DNA from: Rhodoferax sp. | GTDB lineage: Bacteria; Pseudomonadota; Gammaproteobacteria; Burkholderiales; Burkholderiaceae_C | Assembly (NCBI RefSeq): GCF_030653815.1 | Contig: NZ_JAURYQ010000044.1 | Span: 1-64,000 of the forward strand | Length of the DNA: 64,000 bases | Direction: 5' to 3' | Shown: positions 46,812 through 56,874 of the stretch, one piece after another | How positions within the stretch are numbered: position 1 is the first letter of the stretch | Layout: each line of letters opens with the position of its first letter | The notes under the pieces: generated by a model | What the model was told of the DNA's origin: nothing | Database searches by the model: none | The model's input: only the letters and a program-made list of their open reading frames with translations | Program-made: the position numbers and the translations under genes

Positions 46812-48101
46812 TCAACGCGCTTGATCGTTGCGCGCCTTGAGCGCACGCAGCTTGTCACCGATCTTGATCTCCAAGCCGCGCGGCACCGGTCGGTAAAAAC
46901 CCGGCTCGGCCATGCCATCAGGCAGATAGTGCTCGCCCGCTGCAAAACCGTCAGGTTCATCATGCGCATAGCGGTAGGCTTTGCCGTAGTCCAGGTCTTT
47001 CATCAATTTCGTAGGCGCATTGCGCAGGTGCATCGGCACCGGCCGGGTACCATCCTGCTTGACAAAGGCTTTCGCTTCATTGAACGCCTTGTAGACGGCG
47101 TTGGATTTGGGTGCCACCGCCAGATACATCACACATTCCGCCAGGGCCAGTTCGCCCTCGGGGGTGCCCAGGCGCTCATAGACCTCGGCCGCATCGAGCG
47201 CCAAACGCAGCGCGCGCGGGTCGGCCAGGCCGATGTCTTCGCTGGCCATGCGGATCAGGCGCCGCGCCATATAGCGCGGATCCGCACCGCCATCGAGCAT
47301 GCGCACCAGCCAATACAGTGCGGCATCGGGGTCGGAGCCGCGCACACTTTTGTGCAGCGCCGAGATGGTGTCGTAGAACTGCTCGCCGCCCTTGTCATAG
47401 CGGCGCATGCGCTCACCCAGCACCTTGAGCAGCCACACGTCGGTGATCTCGGCGCGTTTTTCCTGGGTGGCAGACACGGCCAGCGTCTCCAGCGTGTTGA
47501 GCAGCCGGCGCGCGTCGCCATCGGCGTAGGCCACCAGGCGCTCGATCGCCTTGGGCTCGACCTCCGGCACCGCCTGCAGCGCCTGCGCCGACGCCACAAT
47601 CTGCTTCAGGTCGTCGGCTGTCAAAGGCTGCAACACATAGACCGCCGCACGAGACAACAGCGCCGAATTGACCTCGAACGACGGGTTCTCGGTGGTGGCG
47701 CCTATAAAGGTGAACAGGCCGCTTTCCACATGTGGCAAAAACGCGTCCTGCTGGCCCTTGTTGAAACGGTGCACCTCATCGACAAAAACCAGCGTGCGGC
47801 GCCCCTGTTGCTGGGCCAGTTGCGCTTTTTCAACGGCTTCACGAATGTCCTTGACGCCGCCCAGCACCGCGCTGATGGTAATGAACTGGGCATCGAAGGC
47901 GCTGGCCATGAGCCGGGCAATGGTGGTTTTGCCGGTGCCTGGCGGTCCCCAGAAAATACAACTGTGCGGCTGACCGGACTCGAACGCCAGGCGCAGCGCC
48001 ATACCCTCACCCAGCAAATGCTGCTGACCCACCACTTCGCCCAGGGTCTTGGGGCGCAGGCGCTCGGCCAGCGGCGAAAGAGGGGCGATGGAATGTTGCA
48101 T
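46812..48101 (-). CDS. rarA: Replication-associated recombination protein A
   Basis: A 429-residue AAA ATPase (MgsA/RarA). Near the N-terminus PLAERLRPKTLGEVVGQQHLLG is followed by Walker [14 protein letters not shown] (about 53-65), Walker B LVFVDEVHRFNKGQQD and sensor GATTENPSFEVNSALLSR. The C-terminal part tetramerises the protein. It acts at stalled replication forks and is related to clamp loaders. In many Betaproteobacteria it follows ftsK-lolA; here the nitrite reductase operon separates it from lolA. Confidence 0.95.
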   Translation of the reverse strand: MQHSIAPLSPLAERLRPKTLGEVVGQQHLLGEGMALRLAFESGQPHSCIFWGPPGTGKTTIARLMASAFDAQFITISAVLGGVKDIREAVEKAQLAQQQGRRTLVFVDEVHRFNKGQQDAFLPHVESGLFTFIGATTENPSFEVNSALLSRAAVYVLQPLTADDLKQIVASAQALQAVPEVEPKAIERLVAYADGDARRLLNTLETLAVSATQEKRAEITDVWLLKVLGERMRRYDKGGEQFYDTISALHKSVRGSDPDAALYWLVRMLDGGADPRYMARRLIRMASEDIGLADPRALRLALDAAEVYERLGTPEGELALAECVMYLAVAPKSNAVYKAFNEAKAFVKQDGTRPVPMHLRNAPTKLMKDLDYGKAYRYAHDEPDGFAAGEHYLPDGMAEPGFYRPVPRGLEIKIGDKLRALKARNDQAR

Positions 48102-48173
48102 ACAGCAATATTGTGACCGAGTCGACCCCTGAGATTAACTCTGCACAAAATGCAACGTCAGGCCGTGCTTTCT

Positions 48174-48187
48174 TTGACTTAACGCAA
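48174..48187 (+). promoter_or_regulatory. Possible FNR-like site upstream of the octaheme cytochrome gene
   Basis: TTGAC-TTAA-CGCAA resembles an FNR box in its first half (7 of 10 overall) and shares the TTGAY-N4-CGCA form with the nrdJ and hsp20 sites. The centre is about 133 bp before the ATG. No clear -10 was found at the expected distance, so this is tentative. Confidence 0.3.
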
Positions 48188-48313
48188 ATAGTTGCAAGAC
48201 TGCATTTGCAAAAAAACGCCATTTTTCAAAAAATGAAGAGGTCTTTACTGACTTCAAGCGCGAACCCGTTCGCTGCAAGTCTGCTGACAGCACAACTGAC
48301 ATACAGGTGATCC

Positions 48314-50047
48314 ATGAAAAAAGAATTGAAAACAATGGGCATCCGGGCCTGGGTGACCCTGGCAGCCACCTCGCTGCTGATGGCGTCTGCCGTGTTTGCC
48401 AAACAGCCCGACCCCGCCGTGGTCAAGCAACAGGAGCAGCGCGCGCAGGCCACGATTGACCAGATCCGCCTGGCCATCCCCACGCCAACGGCGGGCAAAT
48501 CACCCCCGACCGATGCGGCCACCTGTTATGCCTGCCACAAGGACATCAAGGAGTTTCACGCCAACAGCAAACATGCCAGCGTGAACTGTTCCCAGTGCCA
48601 CACCAAACCCGAAGAGCATCTGGCCAAAGACGGCAAGGCAGCGATTGGCACACGTACCGACCACGCGGCCTGCGGCAGCTGCCATCAGGCGCAGTACGAC
48701 TCGTTCCTGGCGATCAATTACGAATCCAAGGCCCGGGTCGAGAAGGGAACCTACAAGGGCCGCTCGCCGCTGTTTGACAAGCTCATGGCACCCCATGGCT
48801 TCACCAAGGAACACGCCGAGCCACGCAGCCATATCTTCATGCTGATGGACCAGCTGATCGTCGACCGTGGCTATGGCGGGCGCTTTCAGCTCAAGGACTG
48901 GACCTTCCTGACCGACGGCAAAGGCGCCGAAACACAACTGTGGAGTGTGCTGCTGAAAGATGCCGAACCCGGCACCAGCGACCAGAAGATCTTTCTTCCC
49001 CAAACCGCTGCGGCGTCGAACCCGGTGTGCCTGAACTGCAAAACGCAGGACCACATCCTGAAGTGGAAATACATGGGCGACCCCGATCCCAAAGCACAAT
49101 GGTCACGCACCTCCAAGGTGGTTGACTTTGTCCGTGACCTGAAGCACCCGATGAACTGCTACAGCTGCCATGACCCGCACTCCACGGCACCCCGCGTGGT
49201 GCGTGACGCACTGATCGAGGCGGTGGTAGATCGCGGCATGGGGACCTACCCCAACAACAAGGCCAAGAGCGAAAAGATCACCATGAAAAAAGTGAGCTTC
49301 CGCGACGGCTTCCGTTCCATCGGCATCCTGAGCAAGTCCGACTCCAACCTGATGTGCGCCCAATGCCACGTGGAATACAACTGCAATCCCGGCTTTGACA
49401 CCAGCACCGGCGAGTACAGCGTGACCATGGCCGACCGCCGAACCAACCATTTCTTCTGGGCCAACGTGTTTGACTACAAGGCTGCGGCAGAGAAAATCAA
49501 GTTCAAGGACTTCAAGCATGCCACCACGGGCGCCCTGCTGTCCAAACTGCAACACCCCGAGAGTGAAACCTTCTGGGGCAGCAAGCACGAAGGCGCCGGT
49601 GTCGAGTGCAAGGACTGCCACATGCCCAAGGTCATTGGTGATGGCAAGACCTACACCTCGCACCAGCAAAAGTCGCCGCGCTACAACGTGACCGACACCT
49701 GCGTGCGTTGCCATGGCGAAATGACCAAGGAACAGGCGCTGTACCAAATCGATTCGATCCAGAACTACACCCGCGGCAAACTGGCCAAGGCCGAGTACTG
49801 GCTGGCCCAGTTGATCGACACCTTTGCCAAGGCCAAGGCCGCCGGTGTACCGGATGAAGCCATCAAAAAAGCGCAAGCCCACCACGATCAAGCCCACATT
49901 TACTGGGAGTGGTGGACGGCAGAAAACTCGGATGGCTTCCATAATCCGGGTGCCGCCCGCGAGACCCTGACCCGCTCGGTCAACGAGTCCCAAGCCGGCA
50001 TCAAGGTGCTCAACGATGCCATGCAGGCCGTTGTTGCGAAAAAGTAG
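48314..50047 (+). CDS. Octaheme cytochrome c nitrite reductase (ONR/NrfA-type)
   Basis: A 577-residue periplasmic protein with a cleavable signal peptide ending ASAVFAK near residue 30. Eight haem sites are visible in order: CYACH (71), CSQCH (92), CGSCH (120), CLNCK (239), CYSCH (282), CAQCH (348), CKDCH (432), CVRCH (463). The single lysine-type site in fourth position is the catalytic haem layout of octaheme nitrite reductases (TvNiR), in which three extra haems precede an NrfA-like pentahaem core. NrfA active-site contexts are present: CAQCHVEYN with the tyrosine near 355, and LQHPESETF with the histidine near 414. The expected reaction is six-electron reduction of nitrite (or hydroxylamine) to ammonia. 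AGGTGATCC precedes ATG. Haem lyase genes follow. Confidence 0.92.
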
Positions 50048-50066
50048 GCACTGAACCTGGTTGAAC

Positions 50067-50099
50067 GGGGGGCGCGCTTCGGCGTGCCCCCATTTTTTT
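50067..50099 (+). terminator. Intrinsic terminator between the octaheme cytochrome and ccmF-like genes
   Basis: GGGGGCGCGC-TTCG-GCGTGCCCCC forms a strong stem with a stable TTCG loop, followed by ATTTTTTT. It lies 20 bp after the cytochrome stop and 15 bp before the ccmF-like ATG. It should end most transcripts and let a minority read through, keeping the haem lyase below its abundant substrate. Confidence 0.88.
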
Positions 50100-50113
50100 G
50101 GAACTTTTGACTC

Positions 50114-52021
50114 ATGATCCCAGAACTTGGCCATGTGGCCCTTATTCTTGCCCTGCAGTTGGCGCTGGTGCAAAGCGTGCTTTGCCTGGCCGGCGCTGCG
50201 CGCAACCAGGCGGGCTGGATGCGCGCGGGCAAAAGTGCCGCCAATGCGCAGTTGCTCTTTGTGCTGGCCAGCTTTGCCGCGCTGGCCTGGGCCTATTACG
50301 CCAACGATTTCAGCGTGCTGAATGTGGCCGAGCATTCCTCGCGCCAGTTGCCAACGCCTTACCGCCTGACCGCCACCTGGGGCTCCCACGAAGGCTCCAT
50401 GATGCTGTGGGTGCTGATCCTGTCTGGCTGGACCGTGGCACTCAACCTCGGGACCCGTCAGTTGCCACTCGAGCTCAAAGCACGCGTGCTGGGGGTGATC
50501 GGGGGGGTCAGCGCTGTCCTGCTGGCGTTTGTGCTGTTCACCTCGAATCCGTTTCTGCGGCTCGACCCGCCGCCCCCCGAAGGCATGGACCTCAACCCCT
50601 TGCTGCAGGACCCGGGCATGATCATTCATCCGCCACTGCTCTACATGGGCTATGTCGGCTTTGTCGTGGCTTTTGCCTTTGCCATAGCGACGATGCTGGG
50701 AAACACGACCAGCAACGACTGGGCGCGCTGGGCTCGGCCCTGGACCCAGGCGGCCTGGGGGTTTCTGACCCTTGGCATCACCGTGGGTTCATGGTGGGCC
50801 TATTACGAACTGGGCTGGGGCGGCTGGTGGTTTTGGGACCCTACCGAAAACGCCTCGCTGATGCCCTGGCTGGCGGGTACCGCACTGATGCACGCGCTGA
50901 CCGTGACCGAAAAACGCGGCAAGCTGCACCTGTGGAGTATTTTTCTGGCCATCACGGTGTTTTCACTTTGCCTGGTGGGCACTTTCCTGGTGCGTTCGGG
51001 CGTGTTGTCATCAGTCCATGCCTTCGCCCTGGATCCGGCGCGTGGTTTGTTCATCTTGCTGTTTCTGGTACTGGTCATTGGCGGCGCGCTGCTGCTGTTT
51101 GCGCTGCGGGCGTCCAGCCTGCTGCGCAACGCACAACAAGCCTTGGTGACACACGAGGTGCTGGTGCTGTCGGGCAACGTGCTGTTGTTGGTGGCCGCCG
51201 CGACCGTGCTGCTTGGCACGCTTTACCCATTGATACTGGACGCTCTGGACCTGGGAAAAGTTTCAGTCGGCCCGCCCTATTTCAATGCCGTTTTCGTCCC
51301 CTTGATGGTTCCGGTGCTGCTGCTGGTTGGTCTGGCCATGCACGCCCGCGGGCACGACACCCGCCTGCGTGCCATCGCTGCCCAACTCAAATGGCACGGC
51401 CTGGCGGCCCTGATGCTTGGCGCCGTCGTGCCCTTGCTTTACCGCGACTTGCGCTGGCCCGCCATGCTGGCCATCACCCTGGCGAGCTGGATCACGCTGG
51501 CCACGGTCCAGGGCCTGGTGCATCAGTACCAGGCACGCGGCAGGCAGGCTTTGTCGGTGCTGGGCATGAGCGTGGCCCACATCGGCCTGGCGATCAGCGT
51601 TGTCGGGGTAGGCTTTGTGAGTTCTTATGAGAGCGAGCAGGACCTGGCCATGCGCCCGGGCGATACCGCCAGCCTGGCGGGCTACACCCTGACTTTTCGC
51701 GGCGTGACCGAAGTCCCGGGCCCCAACTTCTCGGCGGTGGTCGCCGACCTGATCGTCAGCCGGGATGGCAACAACGTCGACAGGCTGAACCCGGAAAAGC
51801 GGGTTTACCATGCCTCCAGAAAACAGATGACAGAGTCTGCGATCCGTTACAGCATCACCGGCGATCTTTATGCCGCTTTAGGTGAGCCCCTGAAAGACGG
51901 CGCCTGGAGCGTGCGCCTGTACCACAAACCCCTGGTGATCTGGATCTGGCTCGGAGCCCTGGTCATGGCCAGCGGCGCTGCCATCGCCATTCTTGCCCGC
52001 CGCCTGAGGAGCATGACATGA
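50114..52021 (+). CDS. CcmF/NrfE-type cytochrome c haem lyase
   Basis: A 635-residue integral membrane protein with about 13-15 helices. The tryptophan-rich haem-handling WWD segment SWWAYYELGWGGWWFWDPTENASLMPW is at about residues 223-250, and the MIIHPPLLYMGYVGFVVAFAFAI segment near 175 carries a conserved histidine. CcmF ligates haem to CxxCH apocytochromes; NrfE does so for the CxxCK site of NrfA with NrfF and NrfG. Its place directly behind a CxxCK-containing cytochrome suggests the NrfE role. It overlaps the TPR gene by ATGA. Confidence 0.9.
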   Translation: MIPELGHVALILALQLALVQSVLCLAGAARNQAGWMRAGKSAANAQLLFVLASFAALAWAYYANDFSVLNVAEHSSRQLPTPYRLTATWGSHEGSMMLWVLILSGWTVALNLGTRQLPLELKARVLGVIGGVSAVLLAFVLFTSNPFLRLDPPPPEGMDLNPLLQDPGMIIHPPLLYMGYVGFVVAFAFAIATMLGNTTSNDWARWARPWTQAAWGFLTLGITVGSWWAYYELGWGGWWFWDPTENASLMPWLAGTALMHALTVTEKRGKLHLWSIFLAITVFSLCLVGTFLVRSGVLSSVHAFALDPARGLFILLFLVLVIGGALLLFALRASSLLRNAQQALVTHEVLVLSGNVLLLVAAATVLLGTLYPLILDALDLGKVSVGPPYFNAVFVPLMVPVLLLVGLAMHARGHDTRLRAIAAQLKWHGLAALMLGAVVPLLYRDLRWPAMLAITLASWITLATVQGLVHQYQARGRQALSVLGMSVAHIGLAISVVGVGFVSSYESEQDLAMRPGDTASLAGYTLTFRGVTEVPGPNFSAVVADLIVSRDGNNVDRLNPEKRVYHASRKQMTESAIRYSITGDLYAALGEPLKDGAWSVRLYHKPLVIWIWLGALVMASGAAIAILARRLRSMT

Positions 52022-52755
52022 ATTTCTGGTTCTTTGCCGCCGCTCTGGTGCTGCTGGCCCTGGCTTTTGTTTTGCTTCCGCTGCGCCGTGAGCCACTGCC
52101 CACCGCGACAGAAGCCGCAGTGCCCCCCGGCCGTGGCCATCGCGGGACTGCCGGTTTGCTGATCCTGTTGCTGCCGCTGGTCACTCTGGGACTGTACCTG
52201 CACCTGGGTGCACCCTCTGTAGTGGGCGCGCAGCAACTCCTGCAGGCACGCGGCCAGCATGACGTGGACAGCATGATGGCCGCCCTGGAAGCCAAACTCA
52301 AGACCAACCCCGACGACACCGAGACCCTGTATGTGCTGGGGCGGTCCTACCTGGCCTTGCAGCGCCATGCAGAAGCCGAAACCGCACTGGCCAAGGCGGC
52401 CAGGCTGGCGCCCAAGGAGGCGCGCATGCTGTCGCAATACGCGGAAGTGCTGGCCATGAACCACAACGGCAATTTGCAAGGCGAGGCAGCCCCCCTGATT
52501 GAGCAAGCCCTGGAACTGGACCCTGAAGACGAAAAAGCGCTGGAACTGGCTGGTCTGGCCGCCTTCCAGCGCGAAGAATGGGCACAAGCCGTGCACTTCT
52601 GGCGGCGCCTGCTTAAGCGGCTGCCATCCGACAGCGAGTTTCACCAGGACATGAGCCAGGCCATCGCGGAAGCTGAAGACAAATCAGCGCGGGCCTCCGG
52701 TTTGGGTGAGCGCGCCAAACTACAGCCTCCCGAAAAGAAGCAGACGCCCCATTAG
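52018..52755 (+). CDS. TPR protein of the NrfG/CcmH(CycH) type
   Basis: A 245-residue protein with two N-terminal membrane helices (NFWFFAAALVLLALAFVLLPL and GLLILLLPLVTLGLYLHLG) and a periplasmic TPR domain (about 85-220) with repeats around TLYVLGRSYLALQRHAEAETALAKAARLAP and AALELAGLAAFQREEWAQAVHFW-like segments. TPR proteins of this kind hold the C-terminus of apocytochrome for the haem lyase. The start overlaps the ccmF-like stop. There is no NrfF/CcmL (CxxC) gene in the operon. Confidence 0.85.
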   Translation: MNFWFFAAALVLLALAFVLLPLRREPLPTATEAAVPPGRGHRGTAGLLILLLPLVTLGLYLHLGAPSVVGAQQLLQARGQHDVDSMMAALEAKLKTNPDDTETLYVLGRSYLALQRHAEAETALAKAARLAPKEARMLSQYAEVLAMNHNGNLQGEAAPLIEQALELDPEDEKALELAGLAAFQREEWAQAVHFWRRLLKRLPSDSEFHQDMSQAIAEAEDKSARASGLGERAKLQPPEKKQTPH

Positions 52756-52774
52756 CCAACACTTTCAGCCAGCA

Positions 52775-53434
52775 TTACTGCCGAATCAAATCGGCGCCAA
52801 TGGGGGGCTTGAAGGCAAACGCCGTGACAGCAAGGGGCGGATTGAGTTTCATTTGCCTGAACGTCAAGACCGAACGCTGGCCAAAGCTGTCCAGGATTTC
52901 CAGCACCTCGAGCGTGCTGCTGGCGGCTGCCGCATCACCCGTTGCCCTGAAGCCCACCCGAACCGACTGCAATTGCCCGTCTTTTGATCTGGGCGTGGCC
53001 AGAACCCACTGCAAGCCGTCCTTTTCGGGCGCATCGGTCAGCACAAAATCAGCCTGCAGGGCCTGCACGTCGTCCGCCGACGCAATCAACGCTGCAGGTG
53101 TCGAGCCCAGCACGGCGGCCTGCTTGCGCGCCGTGACCTGGTTCAGATCCACATCATGCAGCCACAACGTCTGGCCGTCGGCCACAATGGTTTGCACAAA
53201 GGGTTTGACATAGTCGAAGCGGAACCGGTTGGGCCGGGAAAATTCAAACTGACCGCTGGAGGTCTTGACCTTGGGCACCTGCCCTTCGCGCGCTGGCGAG
53301 GTCACGACCTGGGTGAAATCTGCCTGGCCGGTTTTGACGGTCTTGACAAAACTCTCCAGGCTTTTCAGGCCGCTGGCGTTCACACCGCTAACGCAGGTAA
53401 GCGTTAAAAGTGCCGTTAATAAAAATTGTTTCAA
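52775..53434 (-). CDS. lolA: Outer-membrane lipoprotein carrier protein
   Basis: A 219-residue periplasmic carrier that ferries lipoproteins from LolCDE to LolB. It has a signal peptide (KQFLLTALLTLTCVSGVNA) and then the LolA fold: QADFTQVV, GQFEFSRPNRFRFDYVKPFVQTIVADGQTLWLHDVDLNQVT. The start is a TTG at 53434 with AAGGT at proper spacing; no in-frame ATG lies near, and the far upstream ATG would replace the signal peptide with an unrelated stretch that includes a dispersed repeat. It follows ftsK by 82 bp, a conserved pairing. Confidence 0.9.
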   Translation of the reverse strand: MKQFLLTALLTLTCVSGVNASGLKSLESFVKTVKTGQADFTQVVTSPAREGQVPKVKTSSGQFEFSRPNRFRFDYVKPFVQTIVADGQTLWLHDVDLNQVTARKQAAVLGSTPAALIASADDVQALQADFVLTDAPEKDGLQWVLATPRSKDGQLQSVRVGFRATGDAAAASSTLEVLEILDSFGQRSVLTFRQMKLNPPLAVTAFAFKPPIGADLIRQ

Positions 53435-53470
53435 GGCTGACCTTTTGCGTCGGAGTTGGATGAATGCAAA

Positions 53471-53503
53471 GGCATGGATAGCCACGCTTCGCTCGCGATG
53501 ACA
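53471..53503. repeat. Dispersed repeat of the GCGAGCGAAGCG type
   Basis: The stretch reads, on the minus strand, TGTCATCGCGAGCGAAGCG followed by TGGCTATCCATG. This closely resembles the TCATTGCGAGCGAAGCG..CAATCCATG element scattered through many bacterial genomes. It lies between ftsK and lolA. Confidence 0.5.
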
Positions 53504-53516
53504 GCTTTGTTGCCGC

Positions 53517-56874
<3,358 letters not shown>

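Follow-up and report, generated by a model that had tools for sequence, protein, structure and literature searches.

The onr locus and its neighbors

In the window, by which we mean the whole 64,000-nt stretch of Rhodoferax sp. DNA analyzed here, an octaheme cytochrome gene (onr) is directly followed by a gene for a second CcmF and a gene for a short TPR protein, the frames of the latter two overlapping by 4 bases (Table 1). The three genes (48314-52755) would form one cassette, made up of ONR plus machinery for its odd haem. The cassette lies between the host genes rarA and lolA, on the strand opposite to both. The first-pass annotation of this DNA had described onr and had not noted the lyase genes adjoining it.

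Table 1. Features of the onr cassette and its flanks (window positions)
Feature	Position	Strand	Remarks
rarA	46812..48101	-	host gene, left flank of insertion site
TTGACTTAACGCAA block upstream of onr	48174..48187		resembles Crp/FNR-family half-sites, not a canonical FNR box
onr, TvNiR-type octaheme cytochrome c nitrite reductase	48314..50047	+	577 aa; PDB sequence match, fold match, motifs
CLNCK, catalytic haem 4 site	49028..49042	+	from sequence; K243 aligns with TvNiR K188
GC-rich hairpin and T run	50068..50101	+	between onr and CcmF gene; terminator- or attenuator-like
Second CcmF (NrfE-like haem lyase subunit)	50114..52021	+	635 aa; proposed dedicated lyase for CXXCK haem
Short TPR protein resembling NrfG/CcmI	52018..52755	+	245 aa; proposed apocytochrome chaperone
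lolA	52775..53557	-	host gene, right flank of insertion site

ONR is a TvNiR-type octaheme nitrite reductase

The N terminus of ONR, judged by eye, resembles a Sec-type signal. Eight haem sites follow (CYACH 71, CSQCH 92, CGSCH 120, CLNCK 239, CYSCH 282, CAQCH 348, CKDCH 432, and CVRCH 463, by residue), that is, three CXXCH, CLNCK, and four CXXCH, whereas 20000 shuffles of the same protein gave at most two such motifs. The first-pass annotation had counted these seven CXXCH sites and one CXXCK site exactly, with three haems before the lysine site, and the contexts CAQCHVEY and LQHPESETF are both present as it quoted them. Sixteen of the 17 cysteines lie inside haem motifs. The remaining one, C357, aligns in the PDB-search alignment with TvNiR C305, which we take to be the cysteine bonded to the active-site tyrosine. 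In the same alignment R185, K243, Y355, C357, and H414 correspond to TvNiR residues 131, 188, 303, 305, and 361, whose numbers are presumably those of the catalytic residues. All five, the lysine of CLNCK among them, are invariant in a 30-row ONR alignment (30/30) and are kept in 85/85 ONR rows, a set that includes the window's own row and three incomplete ones. H414 sits between haem sites six (348) and seven (432). Published marks of the ONR family are seven CXXCH and one CXXCK in the order 3-1-4 (PMC5433712, PMC10716430), an active-site Tyr, Arg, and Cys (PMC5433712), with the tyrosine linked to a cysteine (PMC12285233), and a His between haem sites six and seven (PMC10716430). The window ONR has the 3-1-4 order, the active-site Tyr, Arg, and Cys, and the inter-site His. 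Further features of the family are a hexameric assembly, a Ca site, and the reduction of nitrite to ammonium.

Searched against all PDB sequences, ONR matched Thioalkalivibrio TvNiR best (712 bits, E=3e-213), and the Trichlorobacter ammonificans ONR gave 535 bits (E=2e-159). NrfA was weaker (best E=2e-26, at most 96 bits), OcwA (6i5b) and MccA came at E=3e-7 and E=0.51, and neither HAO nor OTR was among the 28 sequences matched. A predicted ONR model (30-row alignment, mean pLDDT 78, pTM 0.72, no haems) was then compared with known folds by Foldseek. Octaheme nitrite reductases ranked first (TvNiR, E=3.4e-49, 58% identity), NrfA stood at about 1e-12 and MccA at 0.14, and the best 50 of 207 fold matches held no HAO or OTR. 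Because the overall rmsd is high (~19 Å to TvNiR), the fold evidence rests on ranking and not on geometry. Family members are expected to exceed 40% identity with known ONRs (PMC5433712), and in the fold alignment the window protein is 58% identical to TvNiR and 48% identical to 8rv0.

Distant homology to NrfA speaks for the alternative that the gene encodes a pentaheme NrfA with extra haems, an HAO-like protein, or an octaheme tetrathionate or sulfite reductase. A pentaheme NrfA is expected to have five sites with CXXCK first, whereas the window protein has eight with CXXCK fourth, and its TvNiR score lies far above that of NrfA. HAO has eight CXXCH sites. OTR also has eight CXXCH sites (PMC12285233), whereas one of the eight in the window is CXXCK, and neither HAO nor OTR appears among the sequence or fold matches listed. 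MccA is set aside by its E values (0.51 by sequence, 0.14 by fold). We therefore regard this alternative as extremely improbable, and we identify the 577-aa protein from these comparisons as an octaheme nitrite reductase. The family is small and already known, and the protein is unremarkable within it except for its unusual host. The same assignment, to the TvNiR plan and not to pentahaem NrfA or HAO, had been made in the first-pass annotation, and it is borne out by sequence, fold ranking, motif order, and active-site residues. The model matches known ONR structures first, and the two outcomes that had been set against the assignment did not occur: ONR was not placed with OTR or HAO in the sequence or fold rankings, and the catalytic Arg, Tyr, and His are kept in the aligned ONR rows.

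The adjoining CcmF and the host ccm set

The genome also carries a ccm set on another contig (C31), apart from the cassette. Its C, E, and F genes were recognized by family search, I by NCBIfam, and B, H, and a redoxin in place of G by Pfam; A is an ABC ATPase by place. A fourth PF01578 match, on contig C18, was excluded as a CcmF by its length. An HMM named for NrfE (cut-off, 394) scores the cassette CcmF at 491 bits, but E. coli CcmF (495) and the housekeeping copy of this genome (504) pass as well, and the model was therefore rejected as proof of a dedicated lyase. The TPR protein scores 46 bits with the NrfG model, far below the cut-off of 306. By eye, the cassette holds no open reading frame of at least 80 aa of the NrfF (CcmH) type.

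To place this arrangement among relatives, we took the best 80 of 276 stretches of GTDB contigs that encode ONR relatives as named loci. CcmF adjoins onr in 18 of them (type A) and lies 2 to 4.5 kb downstream in 22 (type B); 20 show no CcmF within at least 4.5 kb, and 20 were not readable over that distance. CcmA, B, C, E, G, and H are all recognized downstream of onr in 20/22 type-B loci, the exceptions being L039, which ends after ccmF, and L033, with none of the six; a CcmH query likewise found its target in 20/22. In the stretch covered, 15/18 type-A loci show none of these genes downstream of onr, and the CcmH query found nothing there in 16/18. The type-A exceptions are L040 (F-G-H-I), L034 (F and H in one frame, then TPR), and L080 (F-G, then the end), the CcmH matches being in L034 and L040. 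Relatives form a graded series: onr with a whole ccm operon, onr-FGHI, onr-FHI, and onr-F-TPR. In L034 (9601-12096), from an Ectothiorhodospiraceae MAG, CcmF and CcmH domains share one 832-aa frame beside onr, which we read as a fusion.

CcmF copies were counted (E<=1e-60) in 27 of 28 chosen genomes of unstated completeness, L018 being left out. There were two in 14/14 type-A genomes, one in 8/8 type-B genomes, and none in 5/5 others. In a 34-row CcmF tree, 14 onr-linked CcmFs form one clade (support, 99/96), and the onr-linked Thioalkalivibrio CcmF falls with type B; forcing all 15, Thioalkalivibrio included, into one clade was weakly rejected (p=0.032). E. coli NrfE, a very long branch, is not joined to the onr-linked CcmFs in the best tree, but joining them was not rejected (AU p=0.106). 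Across the 9 genomes for which ONR, linked CcmF, and housekeeping CcmF were all at hand, ONR pairwise distances correlate with those of linked CcmF at r=0.87 (p=0.0002) and with those of housekeeping CcmF at r=0.59 (p=0.01).

A variable insertion site and a patchy distribution

ONR is present in one copy in its own genome. Counting that genome each time, ONR was found in 2/399 genomes of the family, 3/369 of a class sample, and 5/89 of the genus (2/50 of good quality), one of the five genus matches being doubtful (G780 C108:7236-7955, L093; 49% over 240 residues). The doubtful match covers ONR residues 18-257 in a 262-aa frame and may be a truncated or a different multihaem protein. The nearest named relatives of the window ONR are in Rhodoferax MAGs (98% and 90% identity), in keeping with the Comamonadaceae-like host named in the first-pass annotation, and Propionivibrio dicarboxylicus follows at 78%. 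Further carriers among the best 80 of 276 loci are other Betaproteobacteria, Thioalkalivibrio, Nitrospirota, Thermodesulfobacteriota, and others. One MAG labelled Bordetella parapertussis (L057) carries an onr of the Burkholderiales type-B group, and the label looks doubtful. ONR is rare in the host group, a patchy trait of a few Rhodoferax genomes, and ammonification therefore cannot be read from genus names. The available parts of three papers (PMC11879220, PMC10734462, PMC10993476) contain nothing on ONR in Rhodoferax.

We matched rarA in 81/89 genus genomes and compared 30 rarA loci. lolA lies within ~0.7 kb of rarA in 11 (within ~110 nt in 8 of these), onr is beside rarA in 2 (the own genome and G806), and 17 have no lolA in the stretch covered, which is 1.5 kb or less where the contig ends. 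When 6 of those 17 were read further, lolA appeared at ~1.6 and ~2.4 kb in two and did not appear within 9 to 10 kb in four. The spacing thus differs across the genus, which makes this a variable site. The junction itself (window 48102-52774; L172-L177) is closed in some genus genomes, where the two genes adjoin, and spans 1.6 to more than 9 kb in others. It is empty in G769, the genome nearest by rarA (96% identical), which has no onr. Five other cassette loci (L010, L012, L013, L041, and L082) have neither rarA nor lolA in the stretch covered; insertion sites therefore differ.

The window ONR clusters with its Propionivibrio counterpart (support, 99), as does the cassette CcmF (99/92). Propionivibrio belongs to another family, and a second Rhodoferax ONR group (L041, L082) stands apart, so that at least two acquisitions of ONR in Rhodoferax are likely. 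In two genus genomes, G799 and G841, the ONR is identical to that of L041 and L013, respectively. Between the own genome and Propionivibrio, ONR is 78% and housekeeping CcmF 60% identical; between the own genome and L013, the values are 69% and 83%. The linked CcmFs of the own genome and Propionivibrio share only 57% identity, which does not exceed their identity to others (58 to 61%), and in the tree the Propionivibrio copy sits on a long branch; the case for joint transfer of the two genes therefore depends on the tree. onr and its haem-attachment genes appear to have been inserted as one cassette. The cassette does not stand out as foreign by base composition, no repeat pair of at least 16 nt was found bracketing it, and the 64,000-nt window contains no tRNA.

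Expression signals

Three Rhodoferax loci conserve the block TTGACTTAACGCAA upstream of onr, one of them with 2 differences, and the block may be bound by a regulator. No canonical FNR box was found upstream of the window onr at up to 2 mismatches, nor was one found upstream of onr in L010, L011, or L018. Among 12 onr upstream regions, perfect FNR boxes occur in 2, and 4 have a box at up to one mismatch. A hairpin similar to that at 50068-50091, between onr and the CcmF gene, follows onr in 16/19 type-A loci (window included), 13/22 type-B loci, and 4/16 others; mononucleotide shuffles gave 0/380, 3/440, and 0/320, respectively. The type-B and other counts rule out a hairpin special to the onr-CcmF arrangement. 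We read it as a putative partial terminator that would keep the lyase low relative to the enzyme, and it could equally protect the end of the onr mRNA.

Nitrite source, sinks, and electron donor

In the own genome NarG, NarH, NarI, and NarJ all score above their cut-offs, as does NirB, and an assimilatory-type nitrate reductase near by has NCBIfam scores below the cut-offs. We found no NrfA or NirS and no NirK over its cut-off; a weak NirK match (57 bits; cut-off, 296) was discarded as a multicopper-oxidase-like protein by eye. None of 10 molybdopterin matches passes the cut-off for NapA. Two further proteins of this genome (C14:151139-152380 and C15:74453-75277; L102, L103) resemble arsenate reductase ArrA (1033 bits against a curated cut-off of 1600) and tetrathionate reductase TtrA (1186 bits against 1750), each falling short of its cut-off. 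Given NarGHJI and no NrfA, NirS, or NirK found, ONR is likely the respiratory nitrite sink, which strengthens the case that it would carry out dissimilatory reduction of nitrite or hydroxylamine to ammonium. NarG reduces nitrate in the cytoplasm, and nitrite would therefore have to be exported to reach ONR. NirB could be another nitrite sink. A single NapC/NirT-like tetrahaem protein, the only PF03264 match in the genome, is encoded just upstream of the C31 ccm set; it scores below the subfamily cut-offs and is a possible electron donor for ONR.

Alternatively, ONR may mainly detoxify nitrite, NO, or hydroxylamine, or reduce sulfite, and have little part in nitrate respiration. Hydroxylamine, sulfite, and peroxide are all in vitro substrates of ONRs (PMC5433712), and the cassette has no quinol dehydrogenase gene. 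Against this stand the presence of NarGHJI, with no other respiratory nitrite reductase found, and the canonical FNR boxes upstream of onr in some relatives, though not in the window. On balance we consider a mainly detoxifying role unlikely.

In 28 of the best 80 loci, mostly of the Thiobacillus type, fccB (flavocytochrome c sulfide dehydrogenase flavoprotein) lies directly upstream of onr on the same strand (L017, L033, L039, L043-L045, L047-L052, L054, L056-L065, L070, L072, and L076-L078; for example, L044:5497-9602). An fccA-like cytochrome gene precedes fccB in 25/28, by similarity to the L044 copy, which itself matches no Pfam family at 1e-10. fccB adjoins onr in 21/21 readable type-B loci versus 0/12 readable type-A loci. 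The pairing suggests a periplasmic electron route from sulfide to nitrite in these relatives. Titles and abstract openings yielded no literature on such a link, and the available parts of PMC11879220, PMC10734462, and PMC10993476 contain nothing on it.

A candidate route to the CXXCK haem

We read the CcmF/TPR pair as a putative dedicated lyase for the CXXCK haem, a reading well supported by arrangement and copy number. Apo-ONR would be exported to the periplasm, where the cell's general Ccm system would attach seven haems to the CXXCH sites, and the cassette CcmF would attach haem 4 to CLNCK while the NrfG/CcmI-like TPR protein holds the apoprotein. Haem would be supplied by the host CcmABCDE, and since the cassette lacks NrfF, thiol reduction would presumably fall to the host CcmH. 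The mature enzyme is predicted to reduce nitrite to ammonium in a six-electron step at the lysine-ligated haem with R185, Y355, and H414, with Y355 cross-linked to C357, and it probably reduces hydroxylamine too. Nitrite would come from NarGHJI, giving nitrate ammonification. Overall, we think it probable that the cassette supplies a periplasmic ONR together with its own CXXCK haem installer and that the cell performs nitrate ammonification with nitrite from NarGHJI.

The pair could instead be a spare general System I synthase that adds capacity for a protein rich in haem, with the housekeeping CcmF also able to load CXXCK. All 8 type-B genomes in the copy count, in which onr stands ahead of ccm, have one CcmF and the same kind of ONR, and in Shewanella a CXXCK NrfA matures with no lyase of its own (PMC12285233, PMC6976685), the CcmF and CcmI apparently serving both motif types (PMC6976685); a private lyase is therefore not strictly necessary. 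What weighs against a spare synthase is that the 14 linked CcmFs form a separate clade, that their distances follow those of ONR, and that 15/18 type-A loci have no recognized CcmA, B, C, E, G, or H, so that the pair is no remnant of a general operon. These points leave the spare synthase fairly improbable, and a dedicated lyase remains our preferred reading. More tentatively, at rather less than an even chance, the unit may be a mobile enzyme-plus-installer, whose installer is a reduced synthase of two proteins, CcmF and a TPR chaperone, that lacks CcmH/NrfF, derives from ordinary CcmF by a route separate from that of enteric NrfE, and acts specifically on the Lys-ligated haem of ONR. If so, any host that has a Ccm system could gain nitrite ammonification in a single step.

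The available parts of a recent maturation review (PMC12285233) do not address CXXCK haem attachment in ONR. Judged by titles and abstract openings, with subscription literature mostly outside the scope, we found no description of an onr-CcmF-TPR unit. As a recurrent unit, it offers a direct, testable candidate for how ONR gets its CXXCK haem.

Comparison with known systems

Among characterized enzymes, TvNiR (PDB 2ot4, 2zo5, 3f29) shares with the window ONR the motif order and the active-site residues, including the Tyr-Cys pair, and aligns over residues 64-576; unlike it, the window ONR belongs to a Rhodoferax-type betaproteobacterium. T. ammonificans ONR (PDB 8rv0) is of the same family, at the 48% identity given above, but is more distant in sequence (535 versus 712 bits for TvNiR). 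A Thioalkalivibrio MAG locus (L040) reads onr-ccmF-ccmG-ccmH-ccmI, versus onr-ccmF-TPR in the window.

For the adjoining pair, the closest parallels are lyases tied to one reductase. Shewanella oneidensis SirEFG likewise has an additional CcmF-type lyase, encoded in the cluster of one unusual multihaem reductase, but its target is the CX12NKGCH site of a sulfite reductase, and SirF is part of the set (PMC6976685). In E. coli, NrfEFG is required for the CXXCK haem (PMC12285233), and there, as here, a second CcmF and a short TPR protein are encoded beside a CXXCK nitrite reductase gene; the window cassette differs in having no NrfF and in its proposed substrate, which would be an octaheme ONR instead of NrfA.
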